This document shows, in pieces, positions 41,949 to 62,864 of a stretch of DNA of 64,000 nucleotides (within the stretch, counting starts at the first letter, position 1; every line of letters begins with the position of its first letter). The notes beneath the pieces are model-generated. The model was not told the DNA's origin. It was given only the letters and a program-made list of their open reading frames with translations, and made no database searches. Both the position numbers and the translations under genes were made by a program. The stretch is from positions 1-64,000 of the forward strand of contig JARQZL010000038.1 of NCBI GenBank assembly GCA_029984855.1, read 5' to 3'. This DNA comes from Archaeoglobales archaeon. GTDB taxonomy: Archaea > Halobacteriota > Archaeoglobi > Archaeoglobales > Archaeoglobaceae.

Positions 41949-42258
41949 GGTGGGCTAGGCTGGGGGGTTCGGCGTCCCCTGTAACCCGAAACCGTCGGAA
42001 TGCGGGAGCCGAAGCTGAGGGGAGGTCCGTTTAGCTGGGACGCAAGTCTCCTTCAGTCTCGTAGAGTCCCCGTCCTGGAGGGTCGTCGGTTACAGCTGGG
42101 CTGCCCGGAGGGGCTGTTCGCTGTATTTGCCGGGGAACAGGCTCAGGCCCGGAAGGGAGCAGGCCAATCTCGGACGCACGGCGCTTCCAGGGTAGCGGGG
42201 AGGAGAGACGGGAGGGGGCTTATCCCTGCAACGCGGATCGACCTGAGGCGTGCCCACC
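41949..42258 (+). ncRNA. ffs: signal recognition particle 7S RNA
   Basis: A GC-rich 310-base block between genes begins ggtgggctaggctggggggt and ends ggcgtgcccacc, whose ends pair (ggtgggc with gcccacc) as helix 1 of archaeal SRP RNA. The universally conserved helix 8 sequence is present as ggctcaggcccggaagggag followed by cag. The 5' Alu-like domain loops are also visible. It is the scaffold for SRP19/SRP54 in co-translational membrane targeting. Exact ends are inferred from pairing and may be off by a few bases. The ORF called at 42000-42317 is a by-product of this RNA gene. Confidence 0.93.
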
Positions 42259-42285
42259 TCATTATGCTTTCTTTAGGTAAGTCAA

Positions 42286-42298
42286 ATATATATAATTC
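42286..42298 (+). promoter_or_regulatory. TATA-like element for the glycosyltransferase operon
   Basis: The sequence aaatatatataat is centred about 26 bases before ATG 42317, an ideal distance for a leaderless mRNA. It separates the operon from the SRP RNA upstream. Confidence 0.55.
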
Positions 42299-42316
42299 TC
42301 AATCAAGCGCCAGGTA

Positions 42317-43381
42317 ATGAAGGTAGTGATGGCGTCTCCGTATTACCCTCCGCATATAGGAGGTGTTGAAATCCATACCAAGAACCTGGTTGAGGGGTTG
42401 AAACACAGGGGGCACGAGGTAATTACTATCTCGTCCATAGGGTCGGATATAGTCGTTCCATGTGTGGGAATTCCGTATTCTCCCATTCCTCTGAAGTTTC
42501 CGGATGTGAATGCGGATATCTACCATTCTCATGTTCCATCACCTTTTTTTGCAATAAGGCTTGCAGAACTTGCTGCACGCTATAAAAAACCACATGTTGT
42601 GACTTATCACAACGACGTTGTTGTGCCCTCGAGAGTTAATGGCTACCGTCTTCCTGCAGTTTTTGGAAGAAAAATAGAAGGAGCGAACGCCTCTTTTGTA
42701 AAGCCAGTTCTTGAAAAGGCAGACATGATACTTGCAACAACCCGCAGCTACGCCGGAACGTCTTCCATCCTCTTGGAATTTATCCGAAAAATCAGGATAG
42801 TTCCAAACGCCGTGAATCCGGAGAAGTTTGTTCCAGGAGAAATTGCAGGGGAGAGAGAACCAACAGTTCTTTATGTTGGCAGGCTTGTGGAGTACAAGGG
42901 TCTGTCGTTGCTCATAAAGGCCATAGCGGATGTGCAAAAGGAAATTAAGACCAGACTTGTTGTGGTTGGGGATGGAGAAGATAGAAGAACGTTTGAAGAA
43001 CTGGCACTGAAGCTTGGGGTTGATGCAGTGTTCACGGGGAAAATCCCAAAGAAGGAGGTGGTGGAGTGGATGAGGAGAGCAAGAGTACTTGTTCTTCCAT
43101 CCTTCTCAAGGCTGGAGGCTTTTGGTATAGTTCTGCTTGAAGCAATGGCATGTTCGACTCCAGTTATGGCTGCAGACATTCCGGGAGTCTCTGAAGTCGC
43201 ATCTGAAGGGGGAGTTACGTTTTCTGATGATAAAGAACTTGTTAAAAAGCTAAAACTGCTTCTGACGGATGATCGACTTGCAACAAAGCTGGGAAAAATG
43301 GGAAGAACAGCCGTTGAAAGAAAATTCAGCTGGAAAGTGGTTTTAGACAAAATAGAGAAAATCTATGGTGAACTGCTGTGA
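42317..43381 (+). CDS. glycosyltransferase family 4 (GT-B fold)
   Basis: The 354-residue enzyme has N-terminal MASPYYPPHIGGVEIHTKNLVEGL, the phosphate-binding VVTYHNDVV region, and the C-terminal nucleotide-sugar part VLYVGRLVEYKGLSLLIKAI, then the EX7E motif in SRLEAFGIVLLEAMACSTPV. These are hallmarks of GT4 retaining transferases. It would add a sugar to a lipid or glycan at the inner face of the membrane; donor and acceptor are unknown. It overlaps the GT2 gene by four bases. Confidence 0.9.
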   Translation: MKVVMASPYYPPHIGGVEIHTKNLVEGLKHRGHEVITISSIGSDIVVPCVGIPYSPIPLKFPDVNADIYHSHVPSPFFAIRLAELAARYKKPHVVTYHNDVVVPSRVNGYRLPAVFGRKIEGANASFVKPVLEKADMILATTRSYAGTSSILLEFIRKIRIVPNAVNPEKFVPGEIAGEREPTVLYVGRLVEYKGLSLLIKAIADVQKEIKTRLVVVGDGEDRRTFEELALKLGVDAVFTGKIPKKEVVEWMRRARVLVLPSFSRLEAFGIVLLEAMACSTPVMAADIPGVSEVASEGGVTFSDDKELVKKLKLLLTDDRLATKLGKMGRTAVERKFSWKVVLDKIEKIYGELL

Positions 43382-54782: not shown

Positions 54783-54877
54783 CGCCGCCGGCAGGATTCG
54801 AACCTACGACCATCGGCTCTCTGCAGGCATACCATACCTTTAACAGGCCGACGCTCTACCAGCTAAGCTACGGCGGC
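54783..54877 (-). tRNA. tRNA-Asn (GTT) with a 22-base intron
   Basis: This minus-strand tRNA has acceptor GCCGCCG/CGGCGGC, discriminator G, anticodon stem TCGGC/GCCGA and loop CTGTTA|A with anticodon GTT. The loop is interrupted after position 37. T-arm is CGTAGGTTCGAATCCTGCC-like. Total is 95 bases, or 73 after splicing. A TATA-like ctttaaattc lies about 29 bases upstream. CCA is not encoded. Confidence 0.9.
54819..54840 (-). other. tRNA-Asn intron (canonical position 37/38)
   Basis: The intron folds into a bulge-helix-bulge with the exon. CTGT (tRNA 32-35) pairs with GCAG to make the 4-bp central helix. Three-base bulges TAA and AGA lie at the two cut sites. Inside, AGGTAT-GGT-ATGCCT makes a 6-bp hairpin. 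Cuts after the second base of each bulge remove exactly 22 bases. This is the standard substrate of the archaeal splicing endonuclease. Confidence 0.85.
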
Positions 54878-61063: not shown

Positions 61064-61181
61064 GAAAATCGTGGAAAAAGATTTTCGCAGATTGAAAAGG
61101 ATTTCGGTGATGTTTGTGATTGGTGAAAAAGATTACAAGAATTACGAGAGGTGTAGCACATCCATGATTTTGCAGATTCCT

Positions 61182-61761
61182 TTAAATGCTTCCTCCAGAT
61201 ATCTCTTGCCACTGTTTTTTTATCAGTATTTTAAGGTGCTGTATTCCTTTTTCTTTAAGAAATCTCTTTATTGTCTTGTCATCTGCTTCCACATCTTCAC
61301 TGAATTTTAGTTTTATTAGCCTGCTTATCTCCTCATTTATGCTCTTCTCGTCTCCCTGAATAGAAACAAAGATTTCTATGCCTCTTGAGCCGAGTTCTCC
61401 TTTTATTTGGAGAGCCTTATCCTCGATCAAAGTGATAACTTCAATGACCCGCACTCCTACGCTGTCTTCCAAGTACGTTTTATCTTTATCAAAATTATCG
61501 TAGTACTCTCTATCGTAGAGAACGAGAAACTTACTATATCCTTTTCCAGCATAATATTTTATTGAATTGTAGATAGAGAGTCCCGACAACTTGACGGGCG
61601 TTTTCCTCATTTTTAAGTAAGCTAATTGTTTTAGGAAACCACAGAATCCTTCTTCCATCATATTTTTCTCCAAGAACCTGCAAAACGTCGAATTCTCTTT
61701 TCCCATTCCCGGTTAGAACTATGCAGTCTGGTTTTTGATTTGTCTCTCTGACAACATGCAT
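61182..61761 (-). pseudogene. effector-like partner of the AAA ATPase, frameshifted
   Basis: The protein begins MHVVRETNQKPDCIVLTGNGK at ATG 61761 behind a gaggtgag ribosome site, and that frame fails 60-odd residues on. The sequence continues in a second frame as MRKTPVKLSGLSIYNSIKYY and FLVLYDREYYDNF through to 61182. The two frames meet at a run of five T (61610-61614, plus strand); removing one base restores a single protein of about 192 residues. The acidic core (LVLYDREYYDNFDKDKTYLEDSVGVRVIEV) vaguely recalls TOPRIM-like or RloB-type effectors, but I cannot assign a family. It lies four bases after the ATPase gene stop, so the two form one unit. Confidence 0.7.
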
Positions 61762-61765
61762 AACC

Positions 61766-62783
61766 TCACCTCAATTGTAGAACGTTGGCCACTATTCTTG
61801 GATCTTGATTTGCGATTATTAGATCTTCAAGTTCATCCAAACTAAGTTTTTCATAAATTAAGATGTCATCCTTCATTTTTTCAAGCAGTAAAATTGTCAT
61901 GTCCTCTGAATTGATGTTTTCAGCATCTTTCATATCTACGAGTTCATACAGCACGTCTATGCTATGTGTGGAGATCACAATCTGCCAGTCCTTCTTGCTT
62001 AGCCACCTGAGCAGAATTTTTATAAGGGATGGATGAGCAGAGGCTTCAAAATCATCCCATAAAATAAGCTTTGGTTTTAAAGTCTCCAAAACGAGCATGA
62101 CTTTAATTGCCTTCTCAACACCATCTCCAAGATCAGAGAGCTTTATATAGAGAACACTTCCATCGGGCACTTCTTTTCGCACGCTCAGTGTTTCGGGAAT
62201 CACTTCTGTAAATTTCTCGTGAATGCACTCGCTTATAGTCTTTGCTACACTTACGTTGGCCCCGAGCTTTACTGCTCGATTCCTAATTTCTTCTCGATCT
62301 ATAGACTTCTCAAGATTTTTCACGAACCCAGTACTGTTAGGGATGAACAACACACAATTTTGGATTTCGTCTTTATTTATTTTTATAAGTTTCACAAATT
62401 CATCTACTCGTCCTTTGAATTTCTCCTCTTCAATGAATAAATCTGGAGACCTATCATCATAGATACCTATTCCAATACGTCTCTTGATACGTTTATTATA
62501 AATAACATAATTCAATTTTGCAATTCCTGAATATCCATATATTAATGGTCTACCACTATGAAGACTATCTCTAACAAAATTGTACTTTGTATGTGTTTTT
62601 ACTACTGGTTCACCCATATTCGGATCAGGAAGAAGAGACAAAGCCTCAAGTACAGTTGATTTCCCAGAACAGTTTCTCCCAAACTAAAACTGTAAACTTT
62701 GAAAATTTTATTGGCTCTTTACAGCGTTTTATGCCTCTAAATTCTTCAATATTTAGCTGGACAATGAATACATCATTATTCAT
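61766..62783 (-). pseudogene. AAA/ABC-type ATPase (OLD/RecF-like), frameshifted in the Walker A motif
   Basis: ATG 62783 starts MNNDVFIVQLNIEEFRGIKRCKEPIKFSKFTVLV, then the frame breaks. In the next frame the sequence goes on as GRNCSGKSTVLEALSLLPDP, a textbook Walker A. Dropping one A from the A3 run at 62681-62683 (T on the coding strand) joins them into about 338 residues. Later motifs are the signature-like KLSDLGDGVEKAIK, Walker B LILWDDFEASAHP and the H-loop ISTHSIDVLYEL, so the ATPase core is otherwise complete. This is the AAA_15/AAA_21-type (OLD, RecF) class found in phage-defence and retron-like modules. A TATA-like ctatttatag is centred 26 bases before the ATG. Confidence 0.8.
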
Positions 62784-62804
62784 ACAGATTCGTGTAAAGT
62801 TAGC

Positions 62805-62814
62805 CTATAAATAG
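62805..62814 (-). promoter_or_regulatory. TATA-like element for the ATPase/effector pair
   Basis: The minus-strand ctatttatag is centred 26 bases upstream of ATG 62783, so the promoter of the frameshifted module looks intact and leaderless. Confidence 0.5.
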
Positions 62815-62864
62815 TTTACAGAAGCTATGGAAAAGCATTAAAAGAGAGTCGAAGTCGAAAATCC

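Follow-up and report, generated by a model that had tools for sequence, protein, structure and literature searches.

Does a short, AT-rich pair of genes that stands among housekeeping genes in a genome of the order Archaeoglobales encode an antiviral system, and if so, is it one that has already been described? The initial annotation of the window (the whole stretch of 64,000 nucleotides that was analyzed) had singled out this locus, in which an OLD/RecF-type ATPase gene is followed by a small gene of no nameable family, as a candidate for an undescribed defense system or the remnant of one.

Organization of the two-gene module

The module spans positions 61182-62783 on the minus strand, where two co-directional genes lie within an interval of 1801 bp (61064..62864) between the divergent genes for GGGP synthase and dtdA. 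The surroundings are of the housekeeping kind that had been noticed: dtdA lies on one flank, and the GGGP synthase and UbiA-type genes lie on the opposite flank. Gene 1 (61766..62783, minus strand; ATG at 62783, stop at 61766) encodes an OLD/RecF-type ATPase (AAA_21/AAA_15) of 338 amino acids when read through one frameshift, as judged from its translation, Pfam, and homologue alignment. Gene 2 (61182..61761, minus strand) encodes a putative TOPRIM-like effector, hereafter the partner, of 192 amino acids, likewise read through one frameshift; it starts with an ATG at 61761, four bases past the ATPase stop, and ends at 61182, in agreement with the length and spacing first reported. A Shine-Dalgarno-like GAGGTGA (61766..61772, minus strand) overlaps the ATPase stop and lies directly before the partner ATG. 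The promoter that the initial annotation assigned to the pair was also found, by inspection only, as a TATA-box-like TATTTATA (62806..62813, minus strand) located 23 nt before the ATPase start codon, which makes it a candidate archaeal promoter of the leaderless type. An Rfam search gave no match near the module.

The base composition sets the pair apart from its neighbors, as had been claimed: its GC content is 0.363, about 3.8 standard deviations below the average of the 57 window ORFs with 150 or more amino acids (mean 0.457, sd 0.025). Two other features of the window were observed away from the module. An ORF at 42000-42317, just before a glycosyltransferase-like gene, has a GC content of 0.59 in a window of 0.456 and is possibly not a gene, and a 95-nt tRNA that ARAGORN reports at 54783-54877 (minus strand) as "tRNA-Stop", anticodon tta, probably belongs to type II and has either an intron or a wrongly set anticodon.

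State of the window copy

In the window, both reading frames are interrupted. The single break in the ATPase frame falls near 62677-62682, just before Walker A, so that the first 34 residues, ending in FTVLV, and the sequence from GRNCSGKST on are read in different frames, and the single break in the partner frame falls near 61600-61608. Both could be sequencing or assembly errors in a copy that is in fact intact, as the breaks adjoin short homopolymer runs and the genome is a draft of 154 contigs, but we consider this unlikely since two breaks occur within 1.6 kb while the ORF map, on which this comparison is based, shows no obvious break in the other long window genes. Homologues are also often broken (L006, L013, L014, L016, L017, and L024), although those too come from drafts. 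Decay is therefore favored, and the window copy is probably a decayed remnant, as had been allowed for at the outset, of a module of which intact copies are present in other genomes.

The ATPase

Read through its frameshift, the first gene product matches AAA_21 with 61 bits (cut-off 27; E 2e-16) and AAA_15 with 56 bits (cut-off 32; E 7e-15) in Pfam. It carries an N-terminal EFRGI strand, Walker A (GRNCSGKS), a signature-like loop (DLGDG), Walker B (LILWDDFE), an HP D-loop, and an H-loop (STHS), which together identify an OLD/RecF-like ABC ATPase, and Walker A, DLGDG, LWDDFE, HP, and STHS are kept in an alignment of 14 ATPase homologues. The Walker A, Walker B, and H-loop reported from the first reading are thus all present, but not in one open frame. 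Several PADLOC models match at moderate scores (AriA, AbiLi, NsnB, OLD, and PDC-M38A), and such matches to many OLD-class models place the protein in the OLD/PARIS ATPase class while naming no system; for NsnB and PDC-M38, the top PADLOC models, we found no trace in the literature. The closest solved sequences belong to AAA family ATPases, among them PtuA and other retron ATPases. Intact homologues occur in L007, L009, and other loci.

Conservation of the pair across archaea

The first homologues of the partner were found in two Archaeoglobaceae genomes at 40% and 31% identity, and in both an intact ATPase gene immediately precedes the partner gene. When the ATPase alignment was used for a genome-wide scan, 14 loci were recovered, and the groups with ATPase loci comprise Archaeoglobales, Hydrothermarchaeota, Thermococci, Thermoprotei, Njordarchaeota, Baldrarchaeum, Thermoplasmatota, and an Asgard MAG. 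Subfamily 1 consists of 20 non-redundant ATPase loci, 19 of which could be evaluated as L015 ends at a contig edge, and the partner lies directly downstream in 17 of these 19, which bears out the proposed layout of an ATPase plus a small partner. The two exceptions are L014, with a broken ATPase and no visible partner, and L011, with a different downstream gene. At the latter locus (L011:386-1798, a Thermoprotei MAG), an ATPase of the same clade has a PaREP1/HEPN protein (Pfam PaREP1 1.5e-23, HEPN 4e-6) encoded 3 bp downstream. This single case is possibly an effector swap, and a sensor-effector arrangement would predict replacement by a protein of the RNase-rich HEPN family.

An ATPase-profile search of the phylum recovered a second subfamily of 14 loci, in which the partner is directly downstream in at least 12; ten of the downstream genes match the partner profile (E 1e-4 to 1e-13), and two more were recognized by eye. 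The partners of the two subfamilies match one another by profile with 97% probability. In this second subfamily (L055-L068), which occurs mostly within one family (f7) of the phylum, the ATPase has about 348 amino acids and the partner about 230, usually with a 4-bp overlap between the genes.

Gaps in 17 intact pairs range from -4 to +25 bp, with a 4-bp overlap in 11 of them, and this spacing, together with the GAGGTGA on the ATPase stop, implies translational coupling. The evolutionary distances of ATPase and partner correlate in nine subfamily-1 pairs (r = 0.63, permutation p = 0.001), with the partner diverging faster (17-48% identity, compared to 35-61% for the ATPase). The initial annotation had conceded that the homologues might prove to be ordinary cellular ATPases with no conserved partner, and had advised a search for adjacent homologues; the recurrence of the pair in independent genomes shows that the partner is conserved and excludes chance pairing. 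The pair is a genuine, recurring archaeal unit.

The partner protein

The partner and its homologues gave chance-level matches only against Pfam, NCBIfam, and PADLOC, consistent with the first impression that its family could not be named, and the partner profile found nothing among PDB sequences. The family has conserved motifs, which in the window copy read LTGNG..E, DRE, and G.....NEE. In an alignment of 17 partners drawn from the two subfamilies, G22, D81, E83, and G132 (L010 numbering) are invariant, and G20 and E138 are kept in 16. These GxG(..E), DxE, and G-x5-E motifs would form a likely active site.

In TOPRIM domains, a Glu-Gly follows strand 1 and a DxD follows strand 3. Two AlphaFold models of the partner family (mean pLDDT 81 and 79) start with a beta-alpha-beta-alpha-beta-alpha arrangement, although the second model shows strand 2 weakly. 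Motif I follows strand 1, and DxE follows strand 3, the strand beyond the second helix; after DxE come a beta meander and then a helix carrying the G-x5-E motif. This predicted order of strands and helices equals that of TOPRIM domains. The canonical TOPRIM residues are absent: in 17 of 17 partners, the motif-I Glu position holds T, I, F, or S, and DxD reads DxE. With Foldseek, neither model matched a PDB or viral structure at E < 0.001, and the PDB matches listed contained no TOPRIM entry, which counts against a TOPRIM-like reading. The structural check that had been advised for the partner thus returned a TOPRIM-compatible fold order without a PDB match at that threshold. Foldseek matches to MoeA/gephyrin (TM 0.4, E 1e-3) were judged spurious, as the second model failed to reproduce them with confidence.

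The best profile similarity of the partner is to DUF3226 (PF11536), which one homologue matches co-linearly (E 0.011). The partner profile scores 24.9 against DUF3226, compared to a maximum of 22.7 after column shuffling (0 of 100 shuffles reach the score), but the HH probability is only 2-6%, which also counts against a TOPRIM-like reading, and the best individual score of 16 bits (L010) stays below the curated DUF3226 cut-off of 27 bits, outside that family. Membership in RloB (PF13707) was rejected because no signal rose above shuffles, with a single archaeal RloB sequence making this a weak test. The motifs (GxG, DxE, and G-x5-E), the order of strands and helices, and the above-shuffle similarity to DUF3226 together support, at weak overall similarity, the reading of the partner as a diverged TOPRIM-like effector.

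Distribution, empty site, and gene neighborhood

The module is rare and patchy in its presence, with 3 of 60 relatives and, in the phylum, 11 of 394 (partner profile) and 20 of 394 carrying it. The window genome has one copy, and two other genomes of the genus (G001 and G002) have none. At the corresponding site in G002, GGGP synthase and dtdA are 239 bp apart with no module between them, compared to 1801 bp in the window. An occupied and an empty site thus exist within one genus, and the comparison with a related strain that had been called for argues against a syntenic core gene. The flanks of the two genomes share 74-76% nucleotide identity, and at such divergence no target-site duplication could be claimed. 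The low GC content of the module favors its gain here over a loss in G002.

Most homologous loci stand among unrelated housekeeping genes and not in defense islands, and no relatives were found in phage records, in plasmid records, or, with the ATPase alignment, on viral contigs; both observations count against a defense function. At some loci, the module adjoins HEPN, MNT (nucleotidyltransferase), and PIN genes (L008 and L010) or HEPN/MNT genes (L017).

Relation to known ATPase-effector systems

Like PARIS (AriA/AriB), a class 4 OLD system, the module has an ATPase (AAA_15/21) and a small putative effector encoded by separate adjacent genes. In PARIS, a hexameric ATPase holds a TOPRIM tRNase and frees it as a tRNA-cutting dimer upon a phage trigger (PMC12409363). 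PADLOC AriA models match the ATPase with E 4e-17 here and 1e-26 in the sister subfamily, although they match many other ATPases similarly. The difference lies in the partner, which lacks the canonical TOPRIM glutamate and matches no effector model; neither AriB, the DUF4435-type TOPRIM effector of PARIS, nor DUF4435 itself was detected in the window partner or its homologues with Pfam, PADLOC, or NCBIfam.

Archaeal pairs of an AAA ATPase with DUF3226 or DUF4276 resemble the module in their equal gene order, tight spacing, related ATPases, and co-linear motifs, but the partner has GxG instead of EG in motif I and DxE instead of DxD in motif II, and the similarity is too weak for membership. Nearly all archaeal DUF3226, DUF4276, and RloB genes that were fetched (L069-L097) lie directly after an ATPase gene recognized by our ATPase profile, which indicates that a split arrangement of an ATPase followed by a TOPRIM-like protein is common in archaea. 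Two of these loci (L093 and L094) encode long proteins that begin with an OLD-like ATPase and, in the same frame, show a weak match to DUF3226.

RloA/RloB and AbiL (AbiLi/AbiLii) likewise combine an ATPase with a small partner, and AbiLi models match the ATPase, but the partner differs from that of RloA/RloB in its lack of an RloB signal above shuffles. Class 1 OLD nucleases, Gabija GajA, and Cran1 (class 5) have a RecF/ABC-type ATPase with the same set of Walker and H-loop motifs, but in these the ATPase and TOPRIM domains are fused in one protein, in contrast to the separate genes found here. Gabija in addition needs the UvrD-like GajB, whereas no helicase gene accompanies the module, which has GGGP synthase and dtdA as its neighbors.

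Discussion

We give a probability of about 0.6 to the reading that the window holds a decayed two-gene archaeal conflict module of the split OLD/PARIS type, with the ATPase as sensor and the partner as TOPRIM-like nuclease effector. This reading draws on the OLD class of the ATPase, the conserved tight pairing and co-divergence of the genes, the invariant partner motifs, the patchy presence, and the empty site in G002, and further on the TOPRIM-like fold order, the DUF3226 score, the layout of archaeal DUF3226, DUF4276, and RloB genes, the HEPN protein in L011, and the HEPN, MNT, and PIN neighbors. The pair probably belongs with the PARIS-type and OLD-type antiviral systems, as a relative yet to be described, and not with ordinary housekeeping genes. 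By analogy, we infer antiviral use, sensing, sequestration, and nuclease activity: as in PARIS, the ABC/RecF-like ATPase would probably oligomerize, act as the sensor, and keep the second protein inactive, the partner being a small metal-dependent effector and probably a diverged TOPRIM-like nuclease. In response to a nucleotide signal, a viral protein, or some other trigger, the ATPase would free or activate the effector, which could then cut nucleic acid (tRNA or DNA) and so stop the cell or the invader.

The translational coupling and patchy presence of the genes, the HEPN, MNT, and PIN neighbors at some loci, and the HEPN-family substitution in L011 could also be expected of a toxin-antitoxin-like or plasmid-exclusion module, in which the partner would be the toxin or killer and the ATPase its neutralizer, and which would serve mainly to stabilize or exclude mobile DNA and not to fight viruses. 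Such a role is improbable, as the ATPase gene precedes that of the partner, the ATPase is a large protein of the OLD/PARIS class, and the partner occurs in no plasmid record. A cellular job outside defense, in DNA repair or the cell cycle, deserves consideration because the only archaeal OLD-family protein that has been tested, Cran1, has a cell cycle role and is essential and not antiviral (PMC12796447), which calls for caution with any defense reading. The location of most loci among housekeeping genes and the recurrence of the second subfamily within one family of the phylum would fit such a job as well. We nonetheless judge it quite unlikely, since most relatives, G001 and G002 of the same genus among them, lack the module, which is also broken here and in several other genomes and is therefore dispensable. 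Cran1, in contrast, is essential; it is encoded by one fused gene that is kept throughout Sulfolobales and has a membrane-protein neighbor.

With the conflict-module reading as the preferred one, the claim of an undescribed system holds at the level of the family, where the pair is new, but was generous as to its kind, since the layout of a split ATPase plus a TOPRIM-like protein is already known from PARIS and from AAA pairs with DUF3226, DUF4276, or RloB. A more far-reaching proposal, which we put forward tentatively and hold at less than even odds, is that the partner founds a new archaeal family of effector nucleases with a noncanonical site (GxG, DxE, and G-x5-E) within an archaea-wide split-OLD defense system, the ATPase of which also pairs with a HEPN-family protein.

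Intact pairs derived from thermophiles (L007, L009, and L005) are suited to structure work, and the pair would show how far the site of a TOPRIM-like effector can drift. If the conflict-module reading is true, an ATPase and effector pair that is spread over several archaeal phyla and unnamed in Pfam, NCBIfam, and PADLOC would constitute a new and testable archaeal system.
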